From: a virus
Virus record (IMG/VR): IMGVR_UViG_3300017917_004998
Location: 59,064-123,063 of that record
DNA: 64,000 bases
Reading direction: 5' to 3' (one strand)
The position numbers were made by a program, and so were the translations under genes. A model generated the notes under the pieces. That model did no database searches. It had not been told where the DNA came from and saw only the letters and a list, made by a program, of their open reading frames with translations. Of the stretch, positions 1,161-59,069 are shown one piece after another. Within the stretch, counting starts at the first letter, position 1. Every line of letters starts with the position of its first letter.

Positions 1161-1370
1161 TTAACCCTTTTTAGCTTCTTCGAAATCTTCTTCTGATAAT
1201 TTCCAACCTTTAATTTCTCCGCCAATGTATTCCTTAGCTTCAGAAAAAGTTGCTTTTGGATTTTCCTTTATGTAGTTAACCAATTTTTCTCTAATCGCCG
1301 GGTGAATTCCTTCACCTTCAGATAAGTTTGATTCGTTTACGAAGGTTTCAAAATCTGTAAGGTTTCTCAT
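1161..1370 (-). CDS. small protein with capsid-targeting-like N-terminus
   Basis: This is a 69-residue protein. Its N-terminus (MRNLTDFETFVNE) closely resembles the T4 internal-protein capsid targeting sequence (MKTYQEFIAE), including an aromatic-E-x-F core and a Glu where the prohead protease would cut. The remainder is a charged helical segment with no family I recognise. The gene converges with the flavodoxin-like gene (2 bases between the stops). A minus-strand GATATATAG box lies 20 bases upstream of its start. I infer that it is packaged in the phage head; this is not demonstrated. Confidence 0.6.
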   Translation of the reverse strand: MRNLTDFETFVNESNLSEGEGIHPAIREKLVNYIKENPKATFSEAKEYIGGEIKGWKLSEEDFEEAKKG

Positions 1371-1390
1371 ATCTGTTATTAATTTTCAAT

Positions 1391-1399
1391 CTATATATC
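1391..1399 (-). promoter_or_regulatory. GATATATAG late-promoter-like box
   Basis: The minus strand reads GATATATAG, 20 bases upstream of the start at 1370. It is one of about a dozen such boxes in the window placed just before genes. Confidence 0.5.
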
Positions 1400-1430
1400 T
1401 AGATTATTTTTTTTGATCGTCTAGAGTAAT

Positions 1431-1438
1431 TACATTTG
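1431..1438 (+). promoter_or_regulatory. possible Bacteroidota-type -7 box (TAnnTTTG)
   Basis: TACATTTG fits the Bacteroidota -7 consensus TAnnTTTG. A TTTG lies at 1412-1415, a slightly short 15-base spacing. The start codon of the rhomboid gene follows 5 bases later, which would give a nearly leaderless transcript. Weak evidence. Confidence 0.3.
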
Positions 1439-1443
1439 GACAG

Positions 1444-1980
1444 ATGTTAAAATATTTTATCAACTATTCAAAGGAAAGCTTTCTAAAAACCTTAGCTATT
1501 TCTGCGGTCTGTTTGTTTTCTTATTTTGTAGCATGGCTTGTAGTCATATTTACCGGGGATGCAGATTTTGCTTTAAGGCTTCCGTTTATTTCGCCGTGGA
1601 TACATTCAGATCTTTCTCACTTTTTGATAAACATAATTCCTCTATTCGTTTTAATGCTCAGTGAAAAAAACAGATTTAAGATTTCGTGTCTGTTAATTAT
1701 ACCAATCTTAATCGAAGTGGCTTTTCTGCCATTAATTTTTTTTGGCACAGCCACAGTTATTGGGCTTTCTAAATTCATTTTCTTCTTGTTTGCGAGATTT
1801 ATGCTAACGAGAGAAAACAATAAAGTAATTCATCAATCCGTATTTGTGTTCATATTTACTTTGGAACTGTTACAAATCGGATCGGGTGACCTTATAAGTC
1901 ACGAAGGACACATTTTCGGTAGCATCCTTGGAATCATTTCAATTTATGCGGAGAAAAAAGGTCTCTTAAAGAGATGCTAA
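1444..1980 (+). CDS. rhomboid-family intramembrane serine protease
   Basis: This 178-residue polytopic membrane protein carries the three rhomboid landmarks in the right order. HSDLSHFLIN (residues 54-63) matches the GlpG H-x3-N of transmembrane segment 2. VIGLSK (105-110) places Ser109 at the catalytic Ser of GlpG's GLSG. HEGHIFGSILG (153-163) places His156 at the catalytic His of GlpG's AHIAG. Glycines spaced along the last helix are also kept. The last Gly of GxSG is Lys here. The protein is close to the minimal six-helix core. It would act in the host inner membrane; the substrate is unknown. It converges with, and overlaps by 15 bases, the next gene on the minus strand. Confidence 0.75.
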   Translation: MLKYFINYSKESFLKTLAISAVCLFSYFVAWLVVIFTGDADFALRLPFISPWIHSDLSHFLINIIPLFVLMLSEKNRFKISCLLIIPILIEVAFLPLIFFGTATVIGLSKFIFFLFARFMLTRENNKVIHQSVFVFIFTLELLQIGSGDLISHEGHIFGSILGIISIYAEKKGLLKRC

Positions 1981-2544
1981 AAATTCTTTAAGAACCGACA
2001 TAATATCCTCGACGTTCCCAATCTCTTCTTTTCTATATCCAACGTTTCTATATTTGTCAACAAACTCTTCAAAACTTTTATAAAGGTCTTCGGCTAATTC
2101 TTTGTCTAATTCAGTAACCATAGAATTTTTAAAGCCCTCCATTCCCTTTCCAGTTCCAGATTCTCTAGCTTTATCTGTCGTAAAAGCTTCAATTGCATAT
2201 TTGTCTGGAGACTTGTATTCATACTCATATTCTTCCATTCCCTCTTCATCCTTACCAGCTGGAATCTTTTCGAATTCAACGTAGTCTTCCATTTCATTGG
2301 GTTCGAATGCAACAACGAACATTTTGCCAGTTGCTTTTTCTTTTAGTATAGCATATTCTGAGTAATCTGAAGCAACCAAATCAAATTTGATGTCAGACTG
2401 ATTCATAGAGATGTTTCTATCTGTTTCCGAATCCTCTTTATTCCAAGGAGACATCGGATCACTTGCTGTACCCGCTGGGTAGTTCTCTTCGCTTTCTGAA
2501 GTATTCCCGTTGAAATAATCTTCAAATGTTTTTATTACTCTCAT
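1966..2544 (-). CDS. acidic protein with capsid-targeting-like N-terminus
   Basis: A 192-residue acidic protein of unknown family. The N-terminus (MRVIKTFEDYFNGN) shares the basic-hydrophobic-aromatic pattern seen in several other proteins here and in T4 internal head proteins. The middle section contains short beta-strand-like stretches (YAILKEKATGKMFVVAFE), and the end is helical. It lies 17 bases downstream of the Dps-like gene on the same strand and is probably cotranscribed with it from the box at 3091. Its 3' end overlaps the rhomboid gene convergently. Confidence 0.6.
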   Translation of the reverse strand: MRVIKTFEDYFNGNTSESEENYPAGTASDPMSPWNKEDSETDRNISMNQSDIKFDLVASDYSEYAILKEKATGKMFVVAFEPNEMEDYVEFEKIPAGKDEEGMEEYEYEYKSPDKYAIEAFTTDKARESGTGKGMEGFKNSMVTELDKELAEDLYKSFEEFVDKYRNVGYRKEEIGNVEDIMSVLKEFLASL

Positions 2545-2561
2545 ATGATTTTTCTTTGTTT

Positions 2562-3074
2562 TTAACGCTTAAGTGTAAGTAAATAATTGATCTTATCCAA
2601 TAAAGATAAAATTTCGTCTAACTGGTTTAAAATCTCAGGATCTTTGTCAAATAAAGCTTTACAATCAACTGCATAGCATTTATAAACAGCTTTCATATAT
2701 GAATTAAGCCCATCCGGAGAATCCGGGTTCATATAATTCATAACGCTCATGGTGCATTCTTTGTCAGATAATTCAGGCCTGCAATATTTTCCCATTGCAG
2801 ATTCAACCAAATCGTCAGTCAAAGAAATAAAAGTATTAAAAAGCTCATCCAAAGCCTTGTGCTCTGAGAAGGATCTTGTCTGCCAATGTAATAACTTAAT
2901 TTGTGCAGTGTTTTTTAACACGCTGTGTGTTAAAAAATTCACTTTGTCCATATTGCCGTTTTCTGGCATATCGCTCATAGTTTTTCTGAATGAATTGAAT
3001 GTATAATCACCTCCAGCTGTTCCTGGTTTTTCGATTACGTCTCCGAAAGCACTCAAATTTAAAACTTTATCCAC
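2562..3074 (-). CDS. Dps/ferritin-like protein
   Basis: This 170-residue protein has a Dps-like segment. HWQTRSFSEHKALDELF is followed by a helix bearing D and E. Spacing of the putative iron ligands matches Dps exactly from the second His onward: His72, Asp76 (+4), Asp87 (+11) and Glu91 (+4). His63 precedes a Trp as in the Dps HWN motif, but the loop between the two His residues is 3 residues shorter. The N-terminus (MDKVLNLSAFGDVIEK) may be a diverged capsid-targeting sequence. The protein could bind iron or protect DNA, possibly in the virion. It is likely related to the phage family DUF5856, from memory. A minus-strand GATATATAG box lies 16 bases upstream. Confidence 0.6.
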   Translation of the reverse strand: MDKVLNLSAFGDVIEKPGTAGGDYTFNSFRKTMSDMPENGNMDKVNFLTHSVLKNTAQIKLLHWQTRSFSEHKALDELFNTFISLTDDLVESAMGKYCRPELSDKECTMSVMNYMNPDSPDGLNSYMKAVYKCYAVDCKALFDKDPEILNQLDEILSLLDKINYLLTLKR

Positions 3075-3090
3075 TTTAATTTTTTTTCTT

Positions 3091-3099
3091 CTATATATC
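3091..3099 (-). promoter_or_regulatory. GATATATAG late-promoter-like box
   Basis: The minus strand reads GATATATAG preceded by CTTTA, 16 bases upstream of the Dps-like gene. The same CTTTAGATATATA context recurs at 6724-6737. Confidence 0.5.
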
Positions 3100-3176
3100 T
3101 AAAGTATAAAATTTTTGTGCTTCAGGATTTAGATAAAACAAGGTCTCTATAAAAGATTTGGTGAAAAACTTATTTA

Positions 3177-3186
3177 CATATATAAG
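3177..3186 (+). promoter_or_regulatory. CATATATAAG promoter-like box
   Basis: A variant of the recurring box, 16 bases upstream of the ATG at 3203. This position supports ATG 3203 over the upstream in-frame TTG (3158) and GTG (3161). Confidence 0.4.
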
Positions 3187-3202
3187 GGATCAGAGTAAAA
3201 TC

Positions 3203-3670
3203 ATGGAAGCACTTAAAAACTGGAAAAGTCTTTCCGATAGACAGCCCATCGATCTGGAGACTTATTTAAAAGATTGGATAAAAAAGAACCCAATACATAA
3301 ATTGTACATCGGTTGCGACTCGCACAACGAGTTAAAAAACACAACATTTGCGACTGTGATAGTTCTGCATTATGGGATCGGTGGTGGAGGTCACGTTCTA
3401 TATTCCAGAGACACATATCCTTTAGTTAAGGATCGTTACGAAAGATTGTGGAAGGAAGTTGAGTTGAGTGTTACTGTTGCTCAGAACCTAATTGACTTCG
3501 GATTGGGAAAACCTGACTACATTGACATAGATCTTAATCCAGATCCTAGGTTTAAGTCAAATTCTGTTTTAAGATCTGCTGTTGGGATGATAGAGTCTCT
3601 GGGAATAACACCAAGATACAAAACGAAATCACCATGGGCTATTTCAATTGCTGATTGCATTTGTAAATAA
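3203..3670 (+). CDS. RNase H-like (YkuK/DUF458) protein
   Basis: The protein (155 aa from ATG 3203) matches the DUF458/YkuK pattern: a strand with IGCDSH, then a tract ending in FATVIVLHYGIGGGGHVLYSRD, a helix with E residues, and DYIDIDLNPDP followed by a C-terminal DC. The paired acidic residues fit an RNase H-type nuclease fold. The open frame continues upstream to TTG 3158, but a promoter-like box at 3177-3186 favours the ATG. The role in the phage is unknown; RNA or hybrid processing is possible. Confidence 0.65.
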   Translation: MEALKNWKSLSDRQPIDLETYLKDWIKKNPIHKLYIGCDSHNELKNTTFATVIVLHYGIGGGGHVLYSRDTYPLVKDRYERLWKEVELSVTVAQNLIDFGLGKPDYIDIDLNPDPRFKSNSVLRSAVGMIESLGITPRYKTKSPWAISIADCICK

Positions 3671-3700
3671 AGACTTGCGTGGAAATTAAAAATGTAATTT

Positions 3701-3955
3701 ATGGAAGAACAGGTCGAAGTAATAAATCCTGGCTTGGAAGACATTTCCAAACAGGCAAACCAAATAAAGGATTCAATCAGGAACCTAGAAAGGGAACTTG
3801 ACGCATTGCAAAATAATTGCAATCACCCGGAATATGACATAAAAAACTGTCCTACACAATCGTGCTGTTTCCAATTGAAAAGGGTCTGCAAAAAATGCTT
3901 AAGTGAAATAGGATATCCAACATCGGAGGAGACTGAAGCCTGGGTTTCTTCGTAA
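3701..3955 (+). CDS. small coiled-coil / zinc-binding protein
   Basis: An 84-residue protein with an N-terminal amphipathic helix (residues 10-38) followed by a Cys/His cluster: C40-x-H42, then C63-x2-C66 (RVCKKCLSEIGYP). This arrangement suggests one bound zinc. I do not recognise a named family. It sits between the RNase H-like gene and the Clp gene on the same strand, about 30 bases after the former. Confidence 0.6.
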   Translation: MEEQVEVINPGLEDISKQANQIKDSIRNLERELDALQNNCNHPEYDIKNCPTQSCCFQLKRVCKKCLSEIGYPTSEETEAWVSS

Positions 3956-4028
3956 TTTTTTTTATTGTTCAAATTGCGAAAACTTAAAGTTTTGACTTCA
4001 TATAAGATCTGTGTTAAATCCTAATGAT

Positions 4029-6146
4029 ATGGAAGAAAATTTGAAAAAATCGCTAGACAATCTATCTGGTGAGATGGGACCTAGTAAGATATCAGCAAGC
4101 AGAAGAAGTATGCCAGAAGACGATGACGATGATCTTGGCGGTGAATTTAAAAATTCTTCATCGAACTCAAAAACACCTGCTCTCGATAACTTTACTCGAG
4201 ATCTAACCGAGATGGCGATAAAGGGCGAGCTTGATCCAATCGTTGGCAGAGACGAAGAGATTGAAAGGGTATCACAGATTTTGGCAAGAAGGAAGAAAAA
4301 CAACCCAGTTCTAATTGGTGAACCTGGTGTTGGTAAATCTGCAATTGCTGAAGGACTTGCACTTAGAATTATTCAAAGGAAGGTTTCAAAGAATCTTTTA
4401 AACAAGAAAATCCTTACCCTGGATATGGGATCTGTTGTAGCAGGTACAAAATACAGAGGTCAATTTGAGGAGAGGATCAAGACGATTCTCGACGAACTAA
4501 AGAAGAATAAAGATATCATTATCTTCATAGACGAATTACATACCATAGTCGGTGCAGGCGGATCATCTGGATCATTGGATGCATCTAATATGTTTAAGCC
4601 AGCCTTGGCCAGAGGAGAGATCCAGTGTGTAGGTGCAACTACTTTAAACGAATATAGAACAAACATTGAGAAAGACGGTGCACTGGAGCGTAGATTCCAA
4701 AAGATCATAGTTGACCCGCCAACACCAGCAGAGACTCTCACGATCCTCAGAAACATTAAATCAAAATATGAGGATCACCACAATGTTGAATATACAGACG
4801 AAGCAATTGAGGTATGCGTCAAGCTCACAGAAAGGTTTATAACAGATCGCAATTTTCCTGATAAGGCCCTGGATGCTTTGGATGAAGCGGGCAGTAGAGC
4901 ACAGCTTACTCAGGTTAAAGTTCCAGATAGCCTAATCAAGCTGGAGCAGAACCTGGAAAAGATCAAAGCAGACAAGAAGGAATCTGTAACAAAACAGGAT
5001 TATGAAGCTGCAGCTAAATTCAGGGATCTCGAGAGGAAAGTTAATCTTAGCATTGAGATTGAAACTAAATCATGGGAGCAAAAATTAAAGGAGAAAAGAA
5101 AGATTGTTGATGCTGAAAGAGTTGCTGAAGTAGTTTCAATGATGACCGGGGTTCCTCTAAATAAAGTCACACAGTCAGAAAACCAAAAACTTGCACAGCT
5201 TGAAGAAACCCTGAAAGCAGAAGTAATAGGTCAATCTGTTGCAGTCACCAAAATCTCCAAAGCTATCCTCAGAAATAGACTTGGGTTAAAAGATCCAAAC
5301 AGACCAATAGGATCGTTTATTTTTATGGGTCCAACTGGGGTTGGAAAAACAGAGCTTGCGAAGAAACTGGCAGAAAACATATTTGGAGATAGAGATGCTT
5401 TAATCCGAATTGATATGTCGGAATACATGGAGAAATTCAATTCAACCAAATTAATCGGAGCTCCTCCGGGATACGTAGGACACGAAGATGGAGGTCAGTT
5501 AACAGAAAAGGTTCGCAGAAAACCATATTCTGTTGTTCTGTTTGATGAAATTGAAAAAGCACACCCCGACATTTTCAATTCTTTGCTTCAAATATTGGAT
5601 GAAGGATTTATTACAGATAGCTTAGGTAGAAAGATCAACTTTAAGAACTGTTTGATTATTCTAACATCTAATGTTGGACAAAGGAAAGCTTCTGAATTTG
5701 GTACAGGCGTTGGTTTTAACTCAGCAGATTCACAACAAAAAAAGAACGAGGAATCTTCTTCAATTATCAGAAAGGAATTAGCTAAAACATTCTCACCTGA
5801 GTTTTTGAATCGTGTTGACGAAGTAATCTATTTCAATTCATTAACTAAAGACGATCTGCTTAAAATTATCGAGGTTGAACTTAAAAAGATGTACCCGAGG
5901 TTTGAAGAAATAGGATATAAGATTTCCATATCGAAAGATCTTAAGGAGAAAATAGCAGAGATTGGGTATGATCCTAAATATGGTGCTAGACCGCTCAAAA
6001 GACTTTTGCAGAAATATGTAGAAGATACTATAGCTGAATTGGCAATCCAGCAAAAAATTCAGATTGGATCTAAGATTACATTATCACTAGATCCAAAAAA
6101 GAATCCAGATGAAGAAAATCCGGTTAAGGTAAAAATAGTCTTTTAA
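4029..6146 (+). CDS. ClpC/ClpA-type AAA+ unfoldase
   Basis: A two-ring AAA+ unfoldase of about 705 residues. D1 has Walker A GEPGVGKS (about residues 97-104) and Walker B IIFIDELH. A middle region contains a UVR-like stretch (KQDYEAAAKFRDLERK), as in ClpC. D2 has GPTGVGKT and VLFDEIEKAHP, with conserved C-terminal GARPLKR. The usual N-terminal Clp_N repeats are absent and replaced by about 55 acidic, low-complexity residues. The tripeptide VGF (about 561-563) sits where ClpC carries its ClpP-docking loop, so the protein may dock onto host ClpP. No ClpP is in the window. A GTG at 4011 is in frame; I chose ATG 4029. It probably redirects host proteolysis or unfolds proteins during assembly. Confidence 0.85.
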   Translation: MEENLKKSLDNLSGEMGPSKISASRRSMPEDDDDDLGGEFKNSSSNSKTPALDNFTRDLTEMAIKGELDPIVGRDEEIERVSQILARRKKNNPVLIGEPGVGKSAIAEGLALRIIQRKVSKNLLNKKILTLDMGSVVAGTKYRGQFEERIKTILDELKKNKDIIIFIDELHTIVGAGGSSGSLDASNMFKPALARGEIQCVGATTLNEYRTNIEKDGALERRFQKIIVDPPTPAETLTILRNIKSKYEDHHNVEYTDEAIEVCVKLTERFITDRNFPDKALDALDEAGSRAQLTQVKVPDSLIKLEQNLEKIKADKKESVTKQDYEAAAKFRDLERKVNLSIEIETKSWEQKLKEKRKIVDAERVAEVVSMMTGVPLNKVTQSENQKLAQLEETLKAEVIGQSVAVTKISKAILRNRLGLKDPNRPIGSFIFMGPTGVGKTELAKKLAENIFGDRDALIRIDMSEYMEKFNSTKLIGAPPGYVGHEDGGQLTEKVRRKPYSVVLFDEIEKAHPDIFNSLLQILDEGFITDSLGRKINFKNCLIILTSNVGQRKASEFGTGVGFNSADSQQKKNEESSSIIRKELAKTFSPEFLNRVDEVIYFNSLTKDDLLKIIEVELKKMYPRFEEIGYKISISKDLKEKIAEIGYDPKYGARPLKRLLQKYVEDTIAELAIQQKIQIGSKITLSLDPKKNPDEENPVKVKIVF

Positions 6147-23282: not shown

Positions 23283-23452
23283 CTTAACCAAATCTTTAAT
23301 TCTTAAGGTTCTTAACCCAAACTTTAGTTCTTAGAGTGCTTAATCCCAAACTTTAATTTCTAATTAGCTTAATCCCAAACTTTAATTTCTAATTAGCTTA
23401 ATCCCAAACTTTATTATCTAGAGTGATTAGTCCCAAACTTTATTAATTAAAG
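23283..23452 (+). repeat. 29-bp tandem repeats, about 6 copies
   Basis: Unit CTTAATCCCAAACTTTAATT plus a variable tail. Two central copies (23339-23367 and 23368-23396) are identical over 29 bases; the outer ones diverge. The core CCCAAACTTTA is the best kept part. The repeats are contiguous without spacers, so they look like iterons rather than CRISPR. Confidence 0.8.
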
Positions 23453-23563: not shown

Positions 23564-23851
23564 ATGGCAAAGACAACTAAGGAATTTTCATTTTTGGATT
23601 TAGACAAGGAACTATCAAAAATTACTGGGTTTGAAACTGGATCGATTTTAGCAGACAACACTTTTAGTGAGGTTGATGAATGGATCCCAACAGGCAACTA
23701 TTTATTGAATGCACAATTATCTGGAACCTTATTTGGTGGGATCCCAAACACAAGATCCCTCGGTTTGATGGGAGATCCAGGGTGTTTACGAAAAACCCAA
23801 AAGGTTAGGGTGTATGTATTAAAAACACAAGGTGAGTCGGATAGGACCTAA
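23564..23851 (+). CDS. uvsX: UvsX recombinase, part 1 (N-extein plus short N-intein)
   Basis: The first 73 residues are the start of a RecA/UvsX recombinase, ending in LMGDPG, the first half of the Walker A loop. Residue 74 is Cys, followed by only 22 residues of N-intein (CLRKTQKVRVYVLK...) and a stop. The other half of Walker A (TGKS) is found in the next ORF directly after an intein C-terminus (SHN). The fragment cannot bind ATP alone. It must be joined to the product of 23890-25074 by protein splicing in trans. Confidence 0.9.
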   Translation: MAKTTKEFSFLDLDKELSKITGFETGSILADNTFSEVDEWIPTGNYLLNAQLSGTLFGGIPNTRSLGLMGDPGCLRKTQKVRVYVLKTQGESDRT

Positions 23852-24369
23852 TTATAATCAAAATAGAAAAGTTAAGGATTAATAAAAATATGATGGATAG
23901 AATTCAAATAATTGAAGAGCTTAAGGCTTACCCAGATTTTTACAGCGATGTTGATCTAGAGAAATTGACAGAATCTGAAATTTCAGAATTGTTCAATAAA
24001 CACTGTGAGGAATTTTCGGAAGAGATTGAGATTGGGACTGTTTTCAATGATATGAAAGCACAAAGAATTCTGGCAGACACCCCAGATGGATGGATCGAAG
24101 TTGGTAAATTCGTAAAAAAGACACCAAGGGATATACACAGAGTTATTCTAAACGATGGATCTTTAGTTGAAGCTTCGTGCGATCACATGTTTGAAACTTC
24201 TAGAGGATGGGTGATGTCTAAAGATCTTCAAGATGAAGAACTTATCTTAACAAAAAACGGGTTCGTTGGGGTTAAGGAAAATGAAATTATAGCAAACGAA
24301 GAAGTTTATGATTGGGAGATCCTACACGAGAATCACCGATACTGGGTTGGTAATATGTCTTCACACAAC
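23783..24369 (+). other. split intein 1 of UvsX (Walker A site, atypical split)
   Basis: N-intein 23783-23848 (22 aa, Cys at position 1) and C-intein 23890-24369 (160 aa), separated by a stop and 38 noncoding bases. Block B-like residues (EASCDHMF) are in the C-piece, so the split lies between blocks A and B. The end is block F (YDWEILHENHRYWVGN) and block G (SSHN), with Thr as the +1 residue. The C-piece starts with about 45 extra acidic helical residues. The N-piece is strongly basic, so charge could help assembly. Confidence 0.88.
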
Positions 24370-25074
24370 ACCGGTAAATCTTTCGTTTGCCTGAACGTTG
24401 CAAGAGAAGCTCAGAAAAAAGGATATGATGTAATCTATTGTGATACCGAGGGAGCGATCGATAAAAGCTCTGCTATTAAATTTGGTATTGATGCTAACAA
24501 GGTAAGATATCAGCCAATCAAGACTGTAACTGAATTCCAGACCTTTGTAGCTAACCTTTTGGAGCTAGTTAAGAAAGCAAAGGCAAACGGAGCTAATCCT
24601 AAGATATTGCTGATTCTGGACTCTTTGGGTATGTTAAGCACTGATAAGGAATTAAGAGATGCGATCGAAGGTAAGAATGCTGCTGACATGGGAGCTAAAG
24701 CTAAGGAATTAAGAAAGTTATTCCGTGTTATCACGTTGGATCTGACTGCTGCTAAGATTCCACTGGTTTGTACGAATCACGTTTACTGTCTTACAGCAGG
24801 TCACAAAATCTTAATGTCCGATGACACATATAAAAACATCGAGGATATTGTAGTTGGTGATGTTGTTAAAACATTGGCCGGCGATAGAAACGTTTGTTCG
24901 ACTTCTGAGTTTGAAGATAAGGAGGTTATTAAATTGACTCTTGAAAACGGTCAAACCATCGAGTGCACTCCCAACCATAAATTTTTGGTTGAAAACGAAT
25001 GGACCAACGAACAATCATGGAAATGCTCCGATGATTTGGTAGAGGGAGATTACATTTTAAGAACCAGCGAATAA
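23890..25074 (+). CDS. uvsX: UvsX recombinase, part 2 (C-intein, middle extein, N-intein)
   Basis: A 394-residue ORF with three sections. Residues 1-160 are the C-half of intein 1. Residues 161-299 are the central UvsX part: TGKSFVCLNVAREA (completing Walker A), VIYCDTEGAID, and the Walker B strand KILLILDSLGML, ending at CTNHVY. Residues 300-394 are the N-half of a second intein, with CLTAGHKILM (block A) and CTPNHKF (block B). Two different splicing reactions are needed on this one polypeptide. It is the only gene piece here carrying intein parts on both ends. Confidence 0.9.
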   Translation: MMDRIQIIEELKAYPDFYSDVDLEKLTESEISELFNKHCEEFSEEIEIGTVFNDMKAQRILADTPDGWIEVGKFVKKTPRDIHRVILNDGSLVEASCDHMFETSRGWVMSKDLQDEELILTKNGFVGVKENEIIANEEVYDWEILHENHRYWVGNMSSHNTGKSFVCLNVAREAQKKGYDVIYCDTEGAIDKSSAIKFGIDANKVRYQPIKTVTEFQTFVANLLELVKKAKANGANPKILLILDSLGMLSTDKELRDAIEGKNAADMGAKAKELRKLFRVITLDLTAAKIPLVCTNHVYCLTAGHKILMSDDTYKNIEDIVVGDVVKTLAGDRNVCSTSEFEDKEVIKLTLENGQTIECTPNHKFLVENEWTNEQSWKCSDDLVEGDYILRTSE

Positions 25075-25264
25075 TTAAACCGATTGATGTGGTATATGCA
25101 CACAAAAGCATATACCATGTTTTCTGTAGAATAACTAATATAAAATCATGAAAAAAATAAAGATAATCAAAAAAGAAGTACTAGAGGAAAGAAAGAAAGT
25201 TTATGACGTAACTGTAGAGGGAGCACATCATTATTTCCTAGAAAATGGAGTAATCTCTCATAAT
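24787..25264 (+). other. split intein 2 of UvsX (canonical split)
   Basis: N-intein 24787-25071 (95 aa, blocks A and B) and C-intein 25148-25264 (39 aa, YDVTVEGAHHYFLENG then VISHN, Thr +1), with 73 noncoding bases between ORFs. The split is at the usual DnaE-like position. The insertion point is after TNHVY, near the DNA-binding loop region of RecA-like proteins. Confidence 0.9.
25090..25117 (+). repeat. perfect 10-bp hairpin between UvsX parts 2 and 3
   Basis: TGGTATATGC, loop ACACAAAA, GCATATACCA. It lies in the 73-base gap where the split intein is broken. It could end or slow transcription, protect the message or mark a former insertion site. There is no T-run after it that would make a classic terminator. 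Confidence 0.65.
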
Positions 25265-25798
25265 ACAGGGAGTGGATATATGCCAACTAAAGAATCTTCA
25301 GGTGGTGACGGACCTATTTTTGCAATGTCTGTAATCTCTTTCCTTTCTAAAGCACAGTTAAAAGAAGGTAATAGCACAACTAAGACTGGTATCGTTGTTA
25401 CATCAAATCTTAAGAAAAGCAGATTCACAATCCCAGAGCCTGTTAAGTTTCACATCTCATTCCTAAACGGTATGAACCCTTATGTTGGTTTGCAAGATTT
25501 CGTTTCTTGGGAAGCTTGCGGAATTGGCAAAGGAAAGTTTGAAGAAGTGAAAAACGAAAGCGGAGTCAAAGAAACTGTCTTTATACCAAGCGAAAGTGCA
25601 CAAGCCAGATGGGCGGTTAAACACTTGGGAAAAACTATTACGTCATCACAGCTATTCACACCTGAAGTTTTCACCGATGAGGTTCTCAGACAACTTGACG
25701 AGAATGTTATTAAGAAGCATTTCATATTGCCAACAATGGGAAACAATGATGAGATTGCAAACGCTTTGGAAGCTGATTTAGAAGATGAACAGGAATAA
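25148..25798 (+). CDS. uvsX: UvsX recombinase, part 3 (C-intein plus C-extein)
   Basis: A 216-residue ORF. Residues 1-39 are the C-half of intein 2, ending in ISHN. Residues 40-216 start with Thr and form the C-terminal third of UvsX (TGSGYMPTKESSGGDGPIFAMS, KFHISFLNGMNPYVGLQDF, and an acidic end). The three exteins add to 73 + 139 + 177 = 389 residues, nearly the size of T4 UvsX (391), so nothing appears lost. The end overlaps the next gene by 14 bases. Confidence 0.9.
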   Translation: MKKIKIIKKEVLEERKKVYDVTVEGAHHYFLENGVISHNTGSGYMPTKESSGGDGPIFAMSVISFLSKAQLKEGNSTTKTGIVVTSNLKKSRFTIPEPVKFHISFLNGMNPYVGLQDFVSWEACGIGKGKFEEVKNESGVKETVFIPSESAQARWAVKHLGKTITSSQLFTPEVFTDEVLRQLDENVIKKHFILPTMGNNDEIANALEADLEDEQE

Positions 25799-27892: not shown

Positions 27893-29010
27893 TGGAATCT
27901 GTTTTTCCTAGCATAAAAAACGAAAAAGCAAAGAGAGTATGGTTAATAACCGATACCCATTTGGGCGTAAAAAATAGCTCAAATGAATGGATAGAAATCA
28001 TCGATACCTATTTCAAGGATTTCTTTTTTCCACTGGTTAAAAAGCACTACAGACCTGGGGATGTTCTTATCCACTTAGGTGATTGGTACGATTCTAGACA
28101 GAGCGTCAATCTAAGAGTATTAAATCTAGGTGTTGAGATTGCAGAGAAGATGTCGCTCACGTTTCCAGATGGCATTTGGATTCTAATCGGCAACCATGAC
28201 ATATTTGGGAAAAACACAAACGATGTGAATTCGTTAAAAAGCATCAAATGGATTCCTTCTATTACAATTTGCGAAGAACCTGCCAGCATCCAATTGGGAG
28301 AAAAGTCATTCTTTATGATGCCATGGAGAAAAGACTCAGAGACCGAAGAGTCCTGCTTGGATAGTGCAGAATACCACGACTATCTTTGTTGTCACTCTGA
28401 TATCAGAGGACTTAAGTTTAACAGGTACGTGAACGTTGAGCACGGCTCAGATTCAACTAAGTTTAGAAAATTTGGCAGGGTTTATTCCGGACACATTCAT
28501 TATGCACAAGAGTCTGGAAATATAAAAATGCTTGGCTCACCTTATGAGCTAACTAGATCTGATATGGACAATCCGAAGGGTATTACTCTTTTGGATTTAG
28601 AAACCGGGCAAGAAACGTTCTTTGAAAATGATATTTCTCCGAAGTTCAAAAGATATCAGTTTGAAGAAATTCTAGAGAAAACCATAGATGATGTCAATTC
28701 AGATTTCGAGAACAACTTTGTTGATATCATGATAGATCCAAGAATGGCTTTAAAGGCACCACTGAACATTCTAACGGACTCTATAGTAAATCCAAGAAAG
28801 ATATCTTTCCATCCCTACGATCCTAATCAGGCTTCTTCGCTAGAGGAAAGAATGAGATCTACCGACGAGAGACAATTCGATGTGCTTGACTTCATCGAGG
28901 AATATGTCTCACAGATGGATCATGACAAGGAAACCAGAGATAGAATACTTTCAACAATCAATAAATTGCATTCAATTGTAATTACACAGGATCAGGACAA
29001 AAAGATATGA
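27892..29010 (+). CDS. SbcD/Mre11-like nuclease (gp47-like)
   Basis: A 372-residue metallophosphoesterase. Motifs in order: WLITDTHLGV, VLIHLGDWYDS, ILIGNHD, CCHSDI and GHIHYAQ. These coordinate two metals. It partners with the SbcC/gp46 ATPase that follows, for DNA-end processing in recombination-dependent replication. The gene overlaps the next by 4 bases (ATGA). Confidence 0.88.
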   Translation: MESVFPSIKNEKAKRVWLITDTHLGVKNSSNEWIEIIDTYFKDFFFPLVKKHYRPGDVLIHLGDWYDSRQSVNLRVLNLGVEIAEKMSLTFPDGIWILIGNHDIFGKNTNDVNSLKSIKWIPSITICEEPASIQLGEKSFFMMPWRKDSETEESCLDSAEYHDYLCCHSDIRGLKFNRYVNVEHGSDSTKFRKFGRVYSGHIHYAQESGNIKMLGSPYELTRSDMDNPKGITLLDLETGQETFFENDISPKFKRYQFEEILEKTIDDVNSDFENNFVDIMIDPRMALKAPLNILTDSIVNPRKISFHPYDPNQASSLEERMRSTDERQFDVLDFIEEYVSQMDHDKETRDRILSTINKLHSIVITQDQDKKI

Positions 29011-29201
29011 AAATAACAAAAATTGAGTGGAGAAATTTTTCCTCTTACGGAAACAGAACCCAGGAATTAAATCTGGGTAATGAATCAAGTCTATTTCAGA
29101 TAAACGGAGAAAATGGTACGGGTAAGTGTCTTTATCCCGATACAATTCTAAAAGTTAAGGTATCCAAAGAAACTTTAGCCAAAATAAACAACTTACGTTA
29201 A
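29007..29201 (+). CDS. SbcC/gp46 part 1 (N-extein plus short N-intein)
   Basis: A 64-residue ORF. Residues 1-40 are the start of an SbcC/Rad50-type ATPase (KITKIEWRNFSSYG ... FQINGENGTGK), ending at the Walker A lysine. Residue 41 is Cys, followed by 23 more intein residues (CLYPDTILKVKVSKETL...) and a stop. The catalytic Ser of Walker A is in the next ORF. The fragment is too short to be active alone. Confidence 0.88.
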   Translation: MKITKIEWRNFSSYGNRTQELNLGNESSLFQINGENGTGKCLYPDTILKVKVSKETLAKINNLR

Positions 29202-29624
29202 CCACTTCAGGGAACACCAATATACTTAGAATTTTTTAAGAACTGACAAATGGAGGAAATTGAAATCACTATTAAGGATCTGCATGATTTTTTAACACTA
29301 CACCCAGAAGAGAAGGGAAATATTTTAATCGAAGGAAAGGATGGATGGTGCGAGATTGATGAATCTGCAATCACTGCTCCAGATTCAGTTTTTTACACTA
29401 TTCGAACTGAGAATGGAAAGGAAGCAAAGTGTTCTCCTGATCACCAGTTCTATAATGACACCTGGATTAAATGTAAATACCTAAATGTTGGCTATCCAAT
29501 TCTAACCGATCTTGGATATTCTAAAATAACACATCTGGAGTTAGAAAAAGAAAAAGCAGACCTTTATGATATTGAAGTGAGAGATTCCCACAATTATTAT
29601 GGAAATGGAATACTCTCCCACAAC
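29127..29624 (+). other. split intein of gp46 (Walker A site, atypical split)
   Basis: N-intein 29127-29198 (24 aa) and C-intein 29250-29624 (125 aa). The C-piece carries the block B-like SPDHQF and ends YDIEVRDSHNYYGNG then LSHN, with Ser as the +1 residue. Insertion is GENGTGK^SS. The N-piece is basic and the C-piece begins acidic (MEEIEITIKDL). It follows the same design as UvsX intein 1. Confidence 0.88.
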
Positions 29625-31169
29625 TCATCCATCTCGCATGCTATTTCGTATGGCCTATATGGAAAGGTTGAAGGAAAAAAACTAAAAGATATACCAAACA
29701 GGATCAATGGTAATGCCTGGGTAAGAATAACACTAGATCATCTGGGATCTTCCGTTGTAATAGAAAGAGGAATAGATCCGAATCTTTTCAGGCTTTTTAT
29801 CGATGGCAAGGAGTTTGATCAAGCAGGAAGCAGATCACTCCAGGATTATCTTACTGATGATATTCTCGGTATTCCATATTACGTGTTCAACAACACGATA
29901 TCTCTTTCCATCAACGACTTCAAGAGCTTTATTAAAATGACACCTCAGGATAAAAGAGGAATCATAGATAAAATATTCGGATTCCACATCCTGAATCAGA
30001 TGAGGGAGATCCTTAAATCCGAGACCAAGAAGATAAAGGAATCACTTGATACACTTTCAGGGAAACTTATTTCACTAGACAGCTCAATCAAGAGCTCTTC
30101 AGCCGAAATGGAATCCCTAATTAATGAAATAGAGGAGGAATCTGTAGCCCTAATCGAAGATCTTACATCTAAGATTACAACATTCGAAAATCTACAAACA
30201 CTCCACAATCAGAAGATGTCTGAATTCAGAATCGGAGAAAGTGAGCTAAATCAGAAAACCAGAAACACCAATTCTCTTTTGATAAATGCGCAGTCCAAAT
30301 TGAGAGATCTGGAGAGAAAGCTAAAACTTTATGATCAGAACATTTGTCCGACTTGTGAGGGATCCCTGGAAACCGATTTTCACGCCAATATGAAATCGTC
30401 TATGTTATCTGAAAAAAAATCTATTGATGACAACATAGCAGAGATAGAGAAAACGCTAGGAGAACTTAGAATTCTCGAATTAAATTGCGTTACAACCAGA
30501 AACGAACTTGTTGAAAAGGGAATGAAAATAAAGAATAAGCTTGATTCAATCCATCAAGAATTAAAGCTTCTAAAATCTAAAAAGGGAGACAAACAGGCAC
30601 AGTCTTTACAAAGAATCATAGATTCTCTTACTTCAGATCAGGAAAATACAATCTCGATCAAATTCAAAGAGGAAGAAAAACACAATTGGCTTAAAACTAT
30701 CGACGAAATACTTGGCGAGAAGGGTGTTAAACAGATGGCGATTAGAACCATTCTACCTTCTCTAAATTCAGAAATTCTAGAGCTTCTGAGAAAGATGAAT
30801 CTAAGCTACCAGGTAGTTTTTGACGAGGAATTTAATGCCATGATATATCAGATGGGAATTGAGGTTCCGTCGCAGACATTAAGCACTGGTGAAATGAAAA
30901 AAATAGATTTCGTTGTTCTGGTTGCGATTATGAAGCTTATGAAGCTTAAATTTAGCTCGATAAATCTTCTTTTCCTCGATGAGCTTTTCAGCTCTGTTGA
31001 TCCAGAAGGTGTTCATTCGATCCTTGGGATTCTCAAAAATTCCTGCTCTGAACTTGGACTAAATATATTCGTCATTAATCACGCACCTATGCCACATGAG
31101 ATATTTGATTGGAAAATAGATGTTCAGAAAAAGAACAACTTCTCGTCTTTTACACTCGAGAAAATTTAA
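29250..31169 (+). CDS. SbcC/gp46 part 2 (C-intein plus C-extein)
   Basis: A 639-residue ORF. Residues 1-125 are the C-half of the intein. The remainder is the SbcC/Rad50 ATPase: after SSISHAISYGLYG come coiled coils, a zinc-hook CPTC, the signature-like LSTGEMKKIDF and Walker B LLFLDELFSSVD. Joined exteins total 40 + 514 = 554 residues, close to T4 gp46 (560). Together with gp47 it forms the recombination nuclease complex. Confidence 0.9.
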   Translation: MEEIEITIKDLHDFLTLHPEEKGNILIEGKDGWCEIDESAITAPDSVFYTIRTENGKEAKCSPDHQFYNDTWIKCKYLNVGYPILTDLGYSKITHLELEKEKADLYDIEVRDSHNYYGNGILSHNSSISHAISYGLYGKVEGKKLKDIPNRINGNAWVRITLDHLGSSVVIERGIDPNLFRLFIDGKEFDQAGSRSLQDYLTDDILGIPYYVFNNTISLSINDFKSFIKMTPQDKRGIIDKIFGFHILNQMREILKSETKKIKESLDTLSGKLISLDSSIKSSSAEMESLINEIEEESVALIEDLTSKITTFENLQTLHNQKMSEFRIGESELNQKTRNTNSLLINAQSKLRDLERKLKLYDQNICPTCEGSLETDFHANMKSSMLSEKKSIDDNIAEIEKTLGELRILELNCVTTRNELVEKGMKIKNKLDSIHQELKLLKSKKGDKQAQSLQRIIDSLTSDQENTISIKFKEEEKHNWLKTIDEILGEKGVKQMAIRTILPSLNSEILELLRKMNLSYQVVFDEEFNAMIYQMGIEVPSQTLSTGEMKKIDFVVLVAIMKLMKLKFSSINLLFLDELFSSVDPEGVHSILGILKNSCSELGLNIFVINHAPMPHEIFDWKIDVQKKNNFSSFTLEKI

Positions 31170-35002: not shown

Positions 35003-35927
35003 TAGACCCCTCGGAGGTACCGAACTGATGTTCGATGAGCTCCAATCCAGATTAACTGAAGAACATAAAGAAACGTTCAGCATCTTCAATTACCTGCCTG
35101 ATGCTGACTTCAGTAAATTTACAATATTTTGGAATCAGCTTTCTTATGACCAAGAGGCAGTATCTTTTTTGAAAGATCCTGAGATGGTAGAGAAGATCGG
35201 ACATTTCGTTTTCGTTAGCCATTGGCAAGCGGAAAAGTTCAGACAGATCTTTAGTATACCTGGTTACAAAACAAGCGTAATCAAAAATGCTGCTCTACCA
35301 ACAGTAAGAAGACAGACTGGAAAAAGAGAAGTTGTGAAGCTTTGCTATACCTCAACACCTTGGAGAGGATTAAATGTGTTGCTTGCAGCTTGGGAAACAC
35401 TACAGCCAAAAGATGCTGAATTACATGTTTTCTCTTCTTGCAACATTTACGGTCCAGAGTTTGCAAAAAATGACGAAAGCTATCAAGAACTTTACGATAA
35501 ATGCAACGAGCTGGAAGGTGTAGTATACAGAGGAAGCGTTAGCAATTTCAATCTTAGAAAAGAATTGCCAGCATTCGATATTTTAGCTTATCCAAGCACA
35601 TTCGAAGAAACCTCGTGCATATCTGTAATCGAAGCATTATCATGTGGTCTTAAAGTAGTTACCAGCAATATTGGTGCTTTGCCTGAAACAACAGAGGGCT
35701 GGGCACGAATGTACCCGATCCTGAATTCTCCCGAATTGCACGCAATGAGGTTCGCAAACATCTTGAACGACGAGATCCAAAAAATCAGAAACAACGAAGA
35801 GGAACAACATCTAACATCACAGACGAAAATCTATAACCAACGTTGGACCTGGGATTTTAGAATTAAAGAATGGAACGAATTACTGGATGAATTATCAGCA
35901 GCTGTTCTTGCAAGTCAACCCCAATAA
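34989..35927 (+). CDS. GT4-family glycosyltransferase
   Basis: A 312-residue GT-B enzyme. The start GGTELMF matches the GT4 donor-side GGxE loop. HFVFVSHWQ lies in the middle, and AYPSTFEETSCISVIEALSCGLKVVTS, containing the E-x7-E region, is near the end. The gene overlaps the preceding one by 14 and the following one by 41 bases, so it is part of a tight glycan operon. Confidence 0.8.
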   Translation: MDTFDRPLGGTELMFDELQSRLTEEHKETFSIFNYLPDADFSKFTIFWNQLSYDQEAVSFLKDPEMVEKIGHFVFVSHWQAEKFRQIFSIPGYKTSVIKNAALPTVRRQTGKREVVKLCYTSTPWRGLNVLLAAWETLQPKDAELHVFSSCNIYGPEFAKNDESYQELYDKCNELEGVVYRGSVSNFNLRKELPAFDILAYPSTFEETSCISVIEALSCGLKVVTSNIGALPETTEGWARMYPILNSPELHAMRFANILNDEIQKIRNNEEEQHLTSQTKIYNQRWTWDFRIKEWNELLDELSAAVLASQPQ

Positions 35928-44027: not shown

Positions 44028-44801
44028 ATGGCAAGAAGCAAACCAAAACCAGAAAAGATAGTACAGGAGCAGATCAAGGCTTCTCTAGACTCAATTCTAC
44101 TCGATGAGATGCTGGATATAGAATCAGTAAGGCCTCACGAATTACCTAGGATGAAGACCACAGATGTCATGAATTTTACTGAGGTCACCCAATCAACGGG
44201 AACCGATGCAAAATCCCTGATGGATTCTATAGTTAAGTTCTATCTGGACGAAAATCTCATCGACCAAACATCCTACGTCGATTACAAGAAAAAGATAGAT
44301 TCGATGAACATCTCGTCGATGATGCTACAGCTAAAAACAGCTCAGCATGCTATCACAAAGTTGCTTGAAGAGATAGATCTCGGGATGGCAAATCCAAGGA
44401 TGTTCGAGGTCCTAGCACAGCTGCAGTCGCAAATCATGCAGATGCCTAAAGACTATCAGAACTACATGGAAAAGATGGAGGAAAGCTACAAAAGAATAGG
44501 CAAGGAAATGGAGTCTAAAACCAATTCCGGTGCGATAGCTTTAGATTCCCCTAGTGGAGATGTTTACTCTGGTGTCAAACCTGGTGTGACCGAATCTGGT
44601 GGGATCAAAGTCAGAGGCACAAAAAGTCTCATGGAGGGTTTAAGAGACATTCTGGGTGCTGAGATCGAAGATATCAAACCGATCGAAGAGAACGAAAATT
44701 CTGTGGTGAACGCGAAGAAGAAAACTGAGATTGATGCTTCTAGAAACGTTTTAATACAGGATGATGATAAGCTAGAGATTGACGAGGACCTATTCTTATG
44801 A
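44028..44801 (+). CDS. small terminase subunit (gp16-like)
   Basis: A 257-residue protein. A helical N-terminal part, then AQHAITKLLEEIDLGMANPRMFEVLAQLQSQI, which matches the gp16-type central coiled-coil region. A long acidic tail follows. Position directly before TerL, overlapping it by ATGA, supports the call. gp16 recognises DNA and stimulates the large terminase. Confidence 0.65.
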   Translation: MARSKPKPEKIVQEQIKASLDSILLDEMLDIESVRPHELPRMKTTDVMNFTEVTQSTGTDAKSLMDSIVKFYLDENLIDQTSYVDYKKKIDSMNISSMMLQLKTAQHAITKLLEEIDLGMANPRMFEVLAQLQSQIMQMPKDYQNYMEKMEESYKRIGKEMESKTNSGAIALDSPSGDVYSGVKPGVTESGGIKVRGTKSLMEGLRDILGAEIEDIKPIEENENSVVNAKKKTEIDASRNVLIQDDDKLEIDEDLFL

Positions 44802-45289
44802 GTGTAGAAATAGAAGAAGGACTGATAGACTCCAATTATTGGTCCACGAAAAGAGTCGAAGAATTACTTTGGAGAGTCGAAGAAGAAGGTCTGGATTACA
44901 AATCTGTAGACAACCCTTTCCATGATGGCGATCCTGAACTGAAGAGAAGTAATCTCTTATGGGAATATACCAATGACGAATTACTGGAAATGCAAAAGTG
45001 TGCGAAAGATGTAATCTATTTCGCTAAATATTGCAGGGTAATGACTGACGACGGATTGGTCTATGTGAAGCTTAGAGACTACCAGCAATCTGTGTTAAGA
45101 GAGTATCAGGTAAACCGCTTTAATGTTTTTTTGGCCCCGCGACAGGTGGGCAAATGTCTCTTACCCACAACTTATATAGTAGATAAAAACAATAAAAAGG
45201 TTTCTATAAAGTCCTTAAAAAAACAAAAAAACAAAGATATTTATTCATTTGTGAAATCTTTTTTGTATAAGCTATACAATTTCTTGTAA
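44798..45289 (+). CDS. large terminase part 1 (N-extein plus N-intein)
   Basis: A 163-residue ORF. Residues 1-119 are the N-terminus of gp17-like TerL (YCRVMTDDGLVYVKLRDYQ ... NVFLAPRQVGK), ending at the Walker A lysine. Residue 120 is Cys and starts a 44-residue basic N-intein (CLLPTTYIVDKNNKKV...). The next residue of Walker A (Ser) is in the ORF at 46450. The fragment cannot package DNA alone. ATGA overlap with the small terminase. Confidence 0.9.
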   Translation: MSVEIEEGLIDSNYWSTKRVEELLWRVEEEGLDYKSVDNPFHDGDPELKRSNLLWEYTNDELLEMQKCAKDVIYFAKYCRVMTDDGLVYVKLRDYQQSVLREYQVNRFNVFLAPRQVGKCLLPTTYIVDKNNKKVSIKSLKKQKNKDIYSFVKSFLYKLYNFL

Positions 45290-45340: not shown

Positions 45341-46453
45341 ATGAAACAAAGAGAAAAAAAAGAATTTTTGTGTAAAAATTGTGGAACAAACTACACCTCT
45401 AGCTCAATGAACAGCCAATTCTGTACAATTGACTGCAGGAAAGAATTTAAGGTAAAAGACGGGAAAGAACCAGATAAAGATTATGTGATCTGTAAAATCT
45501 GCAGCAGGGCAACATCAAACGTTACTGGTGTGCACCTTAGAAACCATCCGGGCTGGACAGCTGAGAGATACAAAAAAGAATTCCCAGGAATTCCTGTTAT
45601 AGCTTCTAACGTGCTTGAAAGAATAACAGAGGGCTCTAAAAAAGCAGGTGCACTAATGAGCGAGCCACACCATAGAGAAAGACAAAGCAAGATGATGCTT
45701 GGAGAAAAAAACCCAATGCACAAATCGAATACCACTGACGAAGAAAGAAGATCAGTGTCTCCGTTTTCTCCAGATTTCTACCTCAAAAAATTTCCCAATA
45801 TTACCCAGGAAGAAGCAGAAGCCATGGCTAAAGATAAGCTTTCAGAAAACGCAATCATCTCGTGGGTTAAAAAAGAATATTGGATGAATAAGGGCTACAC
45901 TGAGGAGGAAGCAATCAAAATTATTTCAAAAAAGCAGGCGACATTTTCTTTGGAGAAGTGCATCGAGAAATACGGAAAGCAAGAGGGGATTAAAAAATGG
46001 GAGGAAAGACAAAAGAAATGGAAGTATAAAGTCTTTAATGATACAACCCACATCTCAAGAGGATATTCTAAAATTAGCGAAGAATTCATAGGTTCTTTGC
46101 TTGATGTTTTAAATAAAATGGGCTATCCCAATTCTGACATCCTACATGGTAAAAATGAAAAATTCATCAGGACTAAAGAAGGTAATGTTTATAAATATGA
46201 TTTGGTTTTTTCTAATCTAAAGAAAATAATCGAATTTAATGGGGATTTTTGGCATGCAAACCCAAATTTGTTTGAATCAAATTATCTAAATAAGCCAAAA
46301 AATATGACCGCAAAAGAGATATGGGAATATGATGCGGAAAAGAAAAAAACAGCAGAGTCTCACGGATATACAGTTTTTACTTTGTGGGAGGGAGACTATA
46401 GACAAGATAAAACAATGGCAATTAAAAAGTGCCTAGATTACTTACTGATATGA
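45341..46453 (+). CDS. free-standing Vsr-like homing endonuclease
   Basis: A 370-residue protein. N-terminal zinc-ribbon-like Cys pairs (CKNCGTNY ... FCTIDC and CKICSRAT) are followed by a NUMOD-like helical middle with MLGEKNPMH. The C-terminal domain has the Vsr/EDxHD signature: YKYDLVFSN, KKIIEFNGDFWHANP, and AKEIWEYDAEKK ... GYTVFTLWEGDY. This matches the endonuclease family described inside split-intein genes. It would cut intein-free terminase genes and spread the element. Its stop overlaps the next ATG (ATGA). Confidence 0.85.
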   Translation: MKQREKKEFLCKNCGTNYTSSSMNSQFCTIDCRKEFKVKDGKEPDKDYVICKICSRATSNVTGVHLRNHPGWTAERYKKEFPGIPVIASNVLERITEGSKKAGALMSEPHHRERQSKMMLGEKNPMHKSNTTDEERRSVSPFSPDFYLKKFPNITQEEAEAMAKDKLSENAIISWVKKEYWMNKGYTEEEAIKIISKKQATFSLEKCIEKYGKQEGIKKWEERQKKWKYKVFNDTTHISRGYSKISEEFIGSLLDVLNKMGYPNSDILHGKNEKFIRTKEGNVYKYDLVFSNLKKIIEFNGDFWHANPNLFESNYLNKPKNMTAKEIWEYDAEKKKTAESHGYTVFTLWEGDYRQDKTMAIKKCLDYLLI

Positions 46454-48333
46454 GAGTAAAACTTAAAAAATTAATACTAAGATTAATCTCCCTGATAGAA
46501 AGATTTGAATTCAGGCATCTGGATCTTGACCAGAACGATCACAACAAAAAAATCATAAATGAATCAGACATCGATGTTCAGGTTCTGTCTGATACTGGAT
46601 TTGTTAAAGCTTATAAATATCTAGAAACTCAGCCCTATGACGTTTGGTTTCTAGAACTGGAAAATGGTGATTTTATAGACTGCGCAGACATTCACATTGT
46701 ATATGACCAGGATCTGAACGAAGTCCTCGTCAAAGACCTTCAAATAGGAGATCTTGTGATAACATCAAAAGGTACGAGCAAAGTAAAGTTCTTAGAGAAT
46801 ACCGGTATCCCAGTTTCGATGGTCGATTTATCGATAGATCATCCAAATCACAGATATTACACAAACGATATACTTTCTCACAACAGTATCACGTCTGCGA
46901 TTATTCTTGTTTGGTATCTGCTTTTCAACCACGATAAAAATGCTATGATCCTAGCAAACGTTGGTTCTACTGCGGAAGAATTGATGGACAAGATCAAAGC
47001 GATAGTGAAAGGCCTTCCGTGGTTTTTGAAACCCGGAATTATTGTGAATAACGTTATGTCAATGAAATTTGACAATGGCTGCAGGGCAATTGCTAAAACG
47101 ACAACCAAAACATCAGCGATTGGTTTTACCATCCACTTTTTGTATATGGATGAGTTTGCACACATCCATCCCAATTTTATTGAAAGCTTTTTTAGATCTA
47201 CGTATCCGACAGTTTCCTCGTCAAAGGTTTCCCGTATTATCATAACCTCGACACCCAACGGAATGAACAAATTCCATGACATCTACCAGGATGCAGTCAC
47301 AGGAGAAAACAGTTTTAACCCGATTAGAGTTGACTGGTGGCAGGTTCCTGGCAGGGATGACGAATGGAAAAAAGAGGAGATTGCCAACCTGGGCAGTGAG
47401 GAATTGTTCAATCAGGAATACGGAAACCAATTCTTAAGTTCTTCCACGTTGCTATTGGGATCTAACGAGCTCAAAAAAATTAAAAGCAACGAGGCAGAGT
47501 ATGTGTGGCGTGAGATTGATGCTCTTGGAGATGCCGGGGTCAAGTACGAAAATCTGAGATGGCATCCGAAATTTTCACCGGACGGCAGGGATCTTGATTT
47601 AATGTCCAAATCATTTGTGCTGTCTGTAGACCTTGCTGGTGGTAGCAAAGGTGACTATACAGTCCTGAACATTTTCAAAATAATCCCGTTGCCAAGAAAG
47701 ATCATAGAAGCTATGGACGATTTCTCTGACGAGGCAGATTTTTTCGGTCTTCTTCAGGTTGGAATCTTCAGAGACAATGAGATCCAGATTGAGGACTTTA
47801 AAAAATTCCTTGAGATCCTGGTAACTAAATTCTTCGACAAAGAGAAGATAAAAATTCTGCTGGAGGTCAATTTCAAGGGTGATCTTCTTCTGGACAAGCT
47901 TACACTAAACGACAACATCCCACCTGAGGTCTTTTTGTACACTAAACACACTGAATCTGCAAGAACCGCTAAACCAGGTATTAAGTACAACGAGAAAAAC
48001 AAGGAAAAATACTGTGAGATGCTTAGAATCCTGACTAGATCTAACAGGATCATTCTGAATGAAAAATTGTGGACAATCCCAGAGCTTTTCTCATTTGGTC
48101 TTACTGGAAAGGGAACTTATGCTAGTCAATCCGGACACGATGATGTTGCGATGACTGTTGTTAATCTGTCTGCATTATTTGAAGGCAATGCCTTTTTTGA
48201 CCTGATCAGCGAAATATACGATCAGCTTGATGAGTCTTACAGAGAATTAATTGAAAGCAAACTTGATGATAGCGACGAAGAAGGCGGTACCAAAGAGGGA
48301 GGTTTCTATGGTTCGTTCAGTAAACTCCTTTAA
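46450..48333 (+). CDS. large terminase part 2 (C-intein plus C-extein)
   Basis: A 627-residue ORF from ATG 46450 (an in-frame start at 46429 would overlap the endonuclease gene). Residues 1-145 are the C-intein, with a basic amphipathic start (MRVKLKKLILRLISLIERFEF). The remainder is the gp17 ATPase/nuclease: LYMDEFAHI (Walker B), ITSTPNGMN, and nuclease motifs SVDLAGGSKGDYT, ILLEVNFKGDLLLD and GHDDVAMTVV. The joined protein is 119 + 482 = 601 residues (T4 gp17: 610). Confidence 0.9.
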   Translation: MRVKLKKLILRLISLIERFEFRHLDLDQNDHNKKIINESDIDVQVLSDTGFVKAYKYLETQPYDVWFLELENGDFIDCADIHIVYDQDLNEVLVKDLQIGDLVITSKGTSKVKFLENTGIPVSMVDLSIDHPNHRYYTNDILSHNSITSAIILVWYLLFNHDKNAMILANVGSTAEELMDKIKAIVKGLPWFLKPGIIVNNVMSMKFDNGCRAIAKTTTKTSAIGFTIHFLYMDEFAHIHPNFIESFFRSTYPTVSSSKVSRIIITSTPNGMNKFHDIYQDAVTGENSFNPIRVDWWQVPGRDDEWKKEEIANLGSEELFNQEYGNQFLSSSTLLLGSNELKKIKSNEAEYVWREIDALGDAGVKYENLRWHPKFSPDGRDLDLMSKSFVLSVDLAGGSKGDYTVLNIFKIIPLPRKIIEAMDDFSDEADFFGLLQVGIFRDNEIQIEDFKKFLEILVTKFFDKEKIKILLEVNFKGDLLLDKLTLNDNIPPEVFLYTKHTESARTAKPGIKYNEKNKEKYCEMLRILTRSNRIILNEKLWTIPELFSFGLTGKGTYASQSGHDDVAMTVVNLSALFEGNAFFDLISEIYDQLDESYRELIESKLDDSDEEGGTKEGGFYGSFSKLL

Positions 48334-59060: not shown

Positions 59061-59069
59061 ATTAAAACA

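Follow-up and report, generated by a model that had tools for sequence, protein, structure and literature searches.

A uvsX recombinase gene spread over three open reading frames with two different split inteins in a virus genome

Results

The stretch of DNA analysed here, which we call the window, is 64,000 nucleotides (nt) long, comes from an environmental phage and spans positions 59,064 to 123,063 of the IMG/VR virus record IMGVR_UViG_3300017917_004998 (123,063 bases). Positions are given on the window unless the record is named. The window carries a gene for a UvsX recombinase spread over three co-oriented open reading frames (ORFs) on the plus strand, at 23564-23851, 23890-25074 and 25148-25798, encoding 95, 394 and 216 residues. 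Part 1 is a 73-residue extein ending in GDPG followed by a 22-residue N-intein, CLRKTQKVRVYVLKTQGESDRT. Part 2 opens with a 160-residue C-intein ending in SSHN, continues with a 139-residue extein (TGKS...NHVY) and closes with a 95-residue N-intein starting CLTAGH. Part 3 joins a 39-residue C-intein (MKKIKII...VISHN) to a 177-residue extein starting TGSGYM. An earlier interpretation of this DNA from its letters (below, the sequence-only reading) had proposed a UvsX in three ORFs with two different split inteins, and the matching N and C halves and the exact continuity of the exteins bear this out. It was right to place the first junction within the Walker A motif, but not to end part 1 at the Cys, which is residue 1 of the 22-residue N-intein that follows the extein.

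Cutting at the intein borders and joining the exteins gives 73 + 139 + 177 = 389 residues, the total that had been proposed. Extein 1 (23564-23782, ...SLGLMGDPG) matches PHROG 97, UvsX, at 1.4e-8 and aligns with the UvsX of a syntenic phage, L003, up to GDPG. Extein 2 (24370-24786, TGKS...TNHVY) matches PHROG 97 at 3.9e-30 and is 82% identical to residues 71-217 of L003 UvsX, while extein 3 (25265-25795, TGSGYMPTKES..., stop at 25796) is 69% identical to residues 218-390; part 3 as a whole matches the recombinase family PHROG 18112 at 9.7e-15. Over their whole length the joined exteins align with the uninterrupted 394-residue L003 protein, with 300 of 384 positions identical (78%), and both intein sites are exactly empty in L003 (GDPGTGKS and NHVYTGGG). 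The two genomes share the downstream gene order of a small ORF, a gp41-like helicase, a gp47-like and a gp46-like gene. This co-linear, full-length homology after joining, with Walker A restored as GDPGTGKS, identifies the predicted product as a UvsX/RecA-type protein.

The sequence-only reading regarded an intact uvsX elsewhere in the genome as fatal to its proposal. The 123,063-base record, possibly incomplete, contains no second UvsX. The RecA-family match at record 35270-35725 was considered as an intact UvsX and ruled out, being a RadA/KaiC-like ATPase, and a weak N-intein match beside that gene is spurious.

The first intein interrupts Walker A at GDPG^TGKS (the caret marks the junction), with halves of 22 and 160 residues. 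The N-intein (23783-23848, stop TAA at 23849) is atypically short, below the length needed by curated N-terminal intein models. It has Cys1 and the pattern CLxKxxxVRVYxLK, which is common to the window, to relatives L179, L198, L201, L180 and L228, and to Pseudomonas phage PA5oct. The C-intein (23890-24369) matches VidaL (PDB 6vgv) at 1.9e-8 alone and at 9.9e-43 as a three-sequence profile. A fold model of the part-2 protein, with a mean predicted local distance difference test score of 75, also had VidaL 6vgv as its best Foldseek match (E 1e-8, root-mean-square deviation 1.7), and matched UvsX structures too. As marks of a class-1 intein we used the block-B His, the block-F Asp, the block-G His-Asn and a Cys, Ser or Thr at position +1. 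The site has Cys1, a Thr at +1, and H99, D141, H159 and N160 that are invariant among four homologues. Inteins with N-terminal parts of 15-37 residues are a natural class described in PMC13014065. The 22-residue N-intein falls within it and, with its long homologous C-intein, has the atypical split of VidaL.

The second intein lies at NHVY^TGSG, with halves of 95 and 39 residues split at the usual endonuclease position. Canonical split inteins have an N-terminal part of about 100 residues and a C-terminal part of about 35-50 (PMC13014065), and this is the layout seen here. The N-intein (24787-25071, stop TAA at 25072) exceeds the cut-offs of Pfam PF14890 (Intein_splicing; 3.4e-14, 53.4 bits against a cut-off of 35.8) and TIGR01445 (1.7e-8). 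The C-intein (25148-25264, ending VISHN) exceeds that of TIGR01443 (1e-7) and is 67% identical to its counterpart in L179. These model scores are well outside what chance would give. Curated N- and C-terminal models thus make this a class-1 intein, and the conserved splicing residues are present.

The stops and gaps between the parts, also described by the sequence-only reading, measure 38 nt and 73 nt. Gap 1 (23852-23889) has no endonuclease gene and carries AAGGA, a possible Shine-Dalgarno sequence, upstream of the ATG at 23890. Gap 2 (25075-25147) has no ORF. It contains a strong hairpin at 25086-25121 (a perfect 14-bp stem, dG -19.5 kcal/mol, z -4.6), for which no counterpart was obvious by eye in the 56-nt gap of L179. 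Directly upstream of uvsX, at 23288-23442, a 29-bp unit (CCAAACTTTA core) is repeated in tandem in 5.3 copies. The array is iteron- or regulator-like, and its core has 6 matches against 0.7 expected.

Intein-directed searches found the complete three-ORF layout in four more distinct loci, L179, L198 (which is one locus with L199 in two assemblies), L201 and L229, and a partial version in L218. In L179, a 52-kb contig, part 2 is likewise 394 residues, and part 3 starts MKKLKIIKKEYL, against MKKIKIIKKEVL in the window. The second intein of L179, a homologue of that in the window, is inserted one residue further on (NHTYQ^T against NHVY^T), as though the border had moved to the residue offering the +1 nucleophile. 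L229 has its second intein at a downstream second site. A clade-specific search returned 63 loci, of which 60 cover both sites; all 60 are intein-free with an intact uvsX. A search with PA5oct UvsX mainly yielded UvsX proteins without inteins, whose match was confined to the extein. In a tree of 46 UvsX exteins, well-supported branches require the three-ORF state to have arisen at least four times, and the sister of the window UvsX is the intein-free L113 (83%).

The four intein fragments of the window share 41, 44, 48 and 67% identity with those of L179, and its exteins share 40-50%. In the intein fragments the nonsynonymous rate (dN) is below the synonymous rate (dS) wherever dS is computable, and codon position 3 is the least conserved throughout. 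All four fragments thus look to be under purifying selection, which supports working inteins. None of the three exteins contains a stop or frameshift, and in comparisons with intact relatives the exteins have a dN of 0.08-0.24, while dS is saturated or exceeds 1.2.

Two other genes in the window, also on the plus strand, are broken at Walker A by short-N split inteins. Part 1 of gp46 (SbcC-like; 29007-29201, PHROG 77 at 2.1e-7) ends in ...GENGTGK and a 24-residue N-intein starting CLYPDT, and part 2 (29250-31169) has a C-intein ending in GILSHN before an extein starting SSISHA (PF14890 at 39.1 bits, over its cut-off; PHROG 77 at 1.4e-66). The junction is GENGTGK^SSIS. Both parts use one reading frame, in which stops occur at 29199 and 29244, and relatives are unbroken at the corresponding site (GENGAGKS). 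The terminase gene terL is broken at APRQVGK^SITS. Its part 1 (44798-45289, PHROG 5989 terminase at 5.2e-22) ends in a 44-residue N-intein starting CLLPTT, and part 2 (46429-48333, PF03237 at 2.5e-13) has a C-intein ending in DILSHN, with terminase C-intein relatives in phages, before an extein starting SITSAI. Between them lies a free-standing homing-endonuclease-like ORF (45341-46453; PHROG 22677 at 3.2e-20, PHROG 13076 endonuclease at 2.6e-4). The C-inteins of gp46, terL and uvsX are 28-32% identical to one another. As uvsX, gp46 and terL are all split, the phage would need at least four trans-splicing reactions that proceed without cross-joining.

Similar breaks occur in other loci. In L180 (8019-9359) the ORF of a gp41-like helicase ends in an N-intein (SPTQTNR^CLDPNT...) and adjoins a Walker-A-split uvsX; gp41 therefore also looks split there. 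In L175, a 462-kb uncultured phage, a VidaL-like intein splits a PhoH-like gene (1195-4469) at Walker A, and the two halves flank an endonuclease-like ORF. An AAA-type ATPase in L102 and L103 is also broken at Walker A by a VidaL-like intein and has a second intein in the same gene.

Discussion

The three-ORF, two-intein arrangement of uvsX is confirmed as real and recurrent, being present in several phages that are distant from one another. Our interpretation, which the evidence supports and to which we give a probability of roughly 0.88, is that two split inteins ligate three precursors into a 389-residue UvsX. The three ORFs, lying in one co-oriented run of genes, would be co-expressed as three precursors. 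The atypically split, VidaL-like class-1 intein (22 + 160 residues) would join precursors 1 and 2 at GDPG^TGKS, forming the Walker A loop, and the canonically split class-1 intein (95 + 39 residues) would join precursors 2 and 3 at NHVY^TGSG, leaving a UvsX without a scar. This picture is based on sequence anatomy, homology, empty sites in relatives, recurrence and purifying selection; from these we infer that the parts are co-expressed, that the intein halves associate and splice, that the product is active, and how the inteins were acquired.

Several observations weigh against this interpretation. A single 1-nt indel falling exactly within 23845-23849 would join the two frames at gap 1. As the record may be incomplete, a further copy of uvsX may exist. 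The low dN/dS of the exteins mostly reflects the time before the inteins were acquired. Finally, inteins are absent from L113 and all other close relatives, which makes the acquisition an isolated and perhaps recent one.

The three pieces might instead assemble non-covalently, carrying intein remnants that no longer splice. The intein-less split NrdA of an Aeromonas phage is a precedent, as phage ribonucleotide reductase in pieces works without splicing (PMC3322345 reference 46 and PMC3653736). We think this improbable for uvsX: the splicing residues are kept at both sites, all four intein fragments are conserved against L179, the first break falls within the phosphate-binding loop, and a break without an intein is seen in no relative. 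It is slightly harder still to believe that uvsX is a dying pseudogene whose work is done by another recombinase. The possible incompleteness of the record and the RadA/KaiC-like ATPase at 35 kb of the record would allow it, but that second ATPase is not UvsX-like, and the exteins are free of stops and frameshifts, with low dN/dS in all three pieces.

We give least credence to the gaps being sequencing or assembly errors in what is truly one ORF with two cis-inteins. Such a gene does exist in Salicola phage SCTP-2, where gene 204 carries inteins at Walker A and a second site within one ORF, and the one indel described above would be enough for site 1. Gap 2, however, requires at least two errors, part 2 starts at an ATG of its own, preceded by AAGGA, and part 3 begins at a Met homologous to the start in L179 (MKKLKIIKKE). 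Both sites are split in four further loci, where most gaps hold gene-sized inserts. Independent loci with kilobase gaps make an error at gap 1 an unlikely explanation. Sequencing error in general is very unlikely, and so, given these independent split lineages, is the assembly error that the sequence-only reading had allowed for. A chimeric assembly was also considered and rejected. The GC content is even across the window (0.35-0.40); its one rise, to 0.45-0.50, is at about 34-40 kb of the record, a long way from uvsX. That part of the record (L020 14-20 kb, L002 2500-3050) includes a noncoding stretch rich in G and C runs and repeats, and in this it differs from the remainder.

Relatives suggest how the doubly split gene arose. 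In most of the Walker-A-split relatives examined the gap holds an endonuclease-like ORF of 380-480 residues, a homologue of the one that separates the two terL parts in the window (E 1e-9 to 1e-25). A remnant of it persists in L211, and the window and L229 lack it. Horizontal acquisition is the most likely source of the split inteins. The Walker A intein probably invaded together with its endonuclease gene, as in relatives, the gene then being lost from the window and the split kept. Contiguous versions of the Walker A intein occur in L206, L215 and the Salicola phage, which suggests that it was split or fused more than once. Dassa et al. in 2009 reportedly defined a fractured gene by a free-standing endonuclease gene inserted between its halves. 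The window terL, with its endonuclease-like ORF, is by its layout a typical fractured gene, whereas uvsX has no endonuclease gene in either gap and is derived from a fractured gene rather than a strict member.

Phages are known to carry split inteins that have an endonuclease gene close by (PMC6892783 and PMC3653736) and that break genes of DNA metabolism. The window terL fits that pattern; uvsX differs in being broken twice, with both gaps empty of endonuclease genes. The first intein shares with VidaL the short-N split and a homologous C-intein, and the VidaL C-extein starts with a residue and Gly, like the [ST]GK of Walker A. The VidaL N-intein has 16 residues (PMC13014065). The window uvsX, unlike VidaL, has a 22-residue N-intein, an N-terminal extension of about 50 residues on the C-intein, a Thr at +1 and a second split intein. 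UvsX of the Pseudomonas jumbo phages PA5oct and MIJ3 is interrupted at the same point of Walker A (GESG^SGKS) by a split intein with a 17-residue N-intein, and the gap holds an endonuclease-like ORF. Those genes, unlike that of the window, are split once into two polypeptides, and the record annotations do not mention the split. The T4-like phages Yersinia TG1, Proteus Pm5461 and Klebsiella Lion, and Prevotella Lak-B, have a canonical split intein in UvsX, and in the TG1, Pm5461 and Lion records the gap holds an endonuclease gene. Theirs is one split at a site about 14 residues further downstream, which leaves Walker A intact. Among 50,697 phage records, only the Salicola gene covers 80% of part 2 at one place, but both of its inteins are contiguous, in cis, and its second site is ISGG^SGQ rather than NHVY^. 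A Campylobacter phage has two inteins in each of phoH and nrdA, likewise one phage gene with two inteins; three polypeptides with two split inteins are not described in the accessible part of that account (PMC3322345). Tandem trans-splicing of three segments by two orthogonal split inteins has been engineered (PMC12707363), a man-made counterpart of the natural arrangement here.

Split inteins, fractured genes and a Walker A split intein in phage UvsX are each already in public records. Limited literature searches found no description of a natural protein made by two split inteins. As far as we searched, it would be new for one natural enzyme to be made from three polypeptides by two trans-splicing events, and for this to have evolved repeatedly.

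One could imagine splicing as a means of control. UvsX, gp46 and terminase are P-loop machines that would be unable to use ATP until Walker A is formed, so that recombination, needed for homing, would be gated by inteins. We consider this unlikely.

As the layout recurs in at least four lineages, double breakage of uvsX appears to be tolerated or even favoured. If our interpretation is true, it is a natural case of the tandem trans-splicing that chemists have built, and the two split inteins in one enzyme must not cross-react. With related Walker A split inteins in three genes of one window, mis-splicing among them would be directly testable, and these loci may be a source of new, possibly orthogonal, short split inteins.
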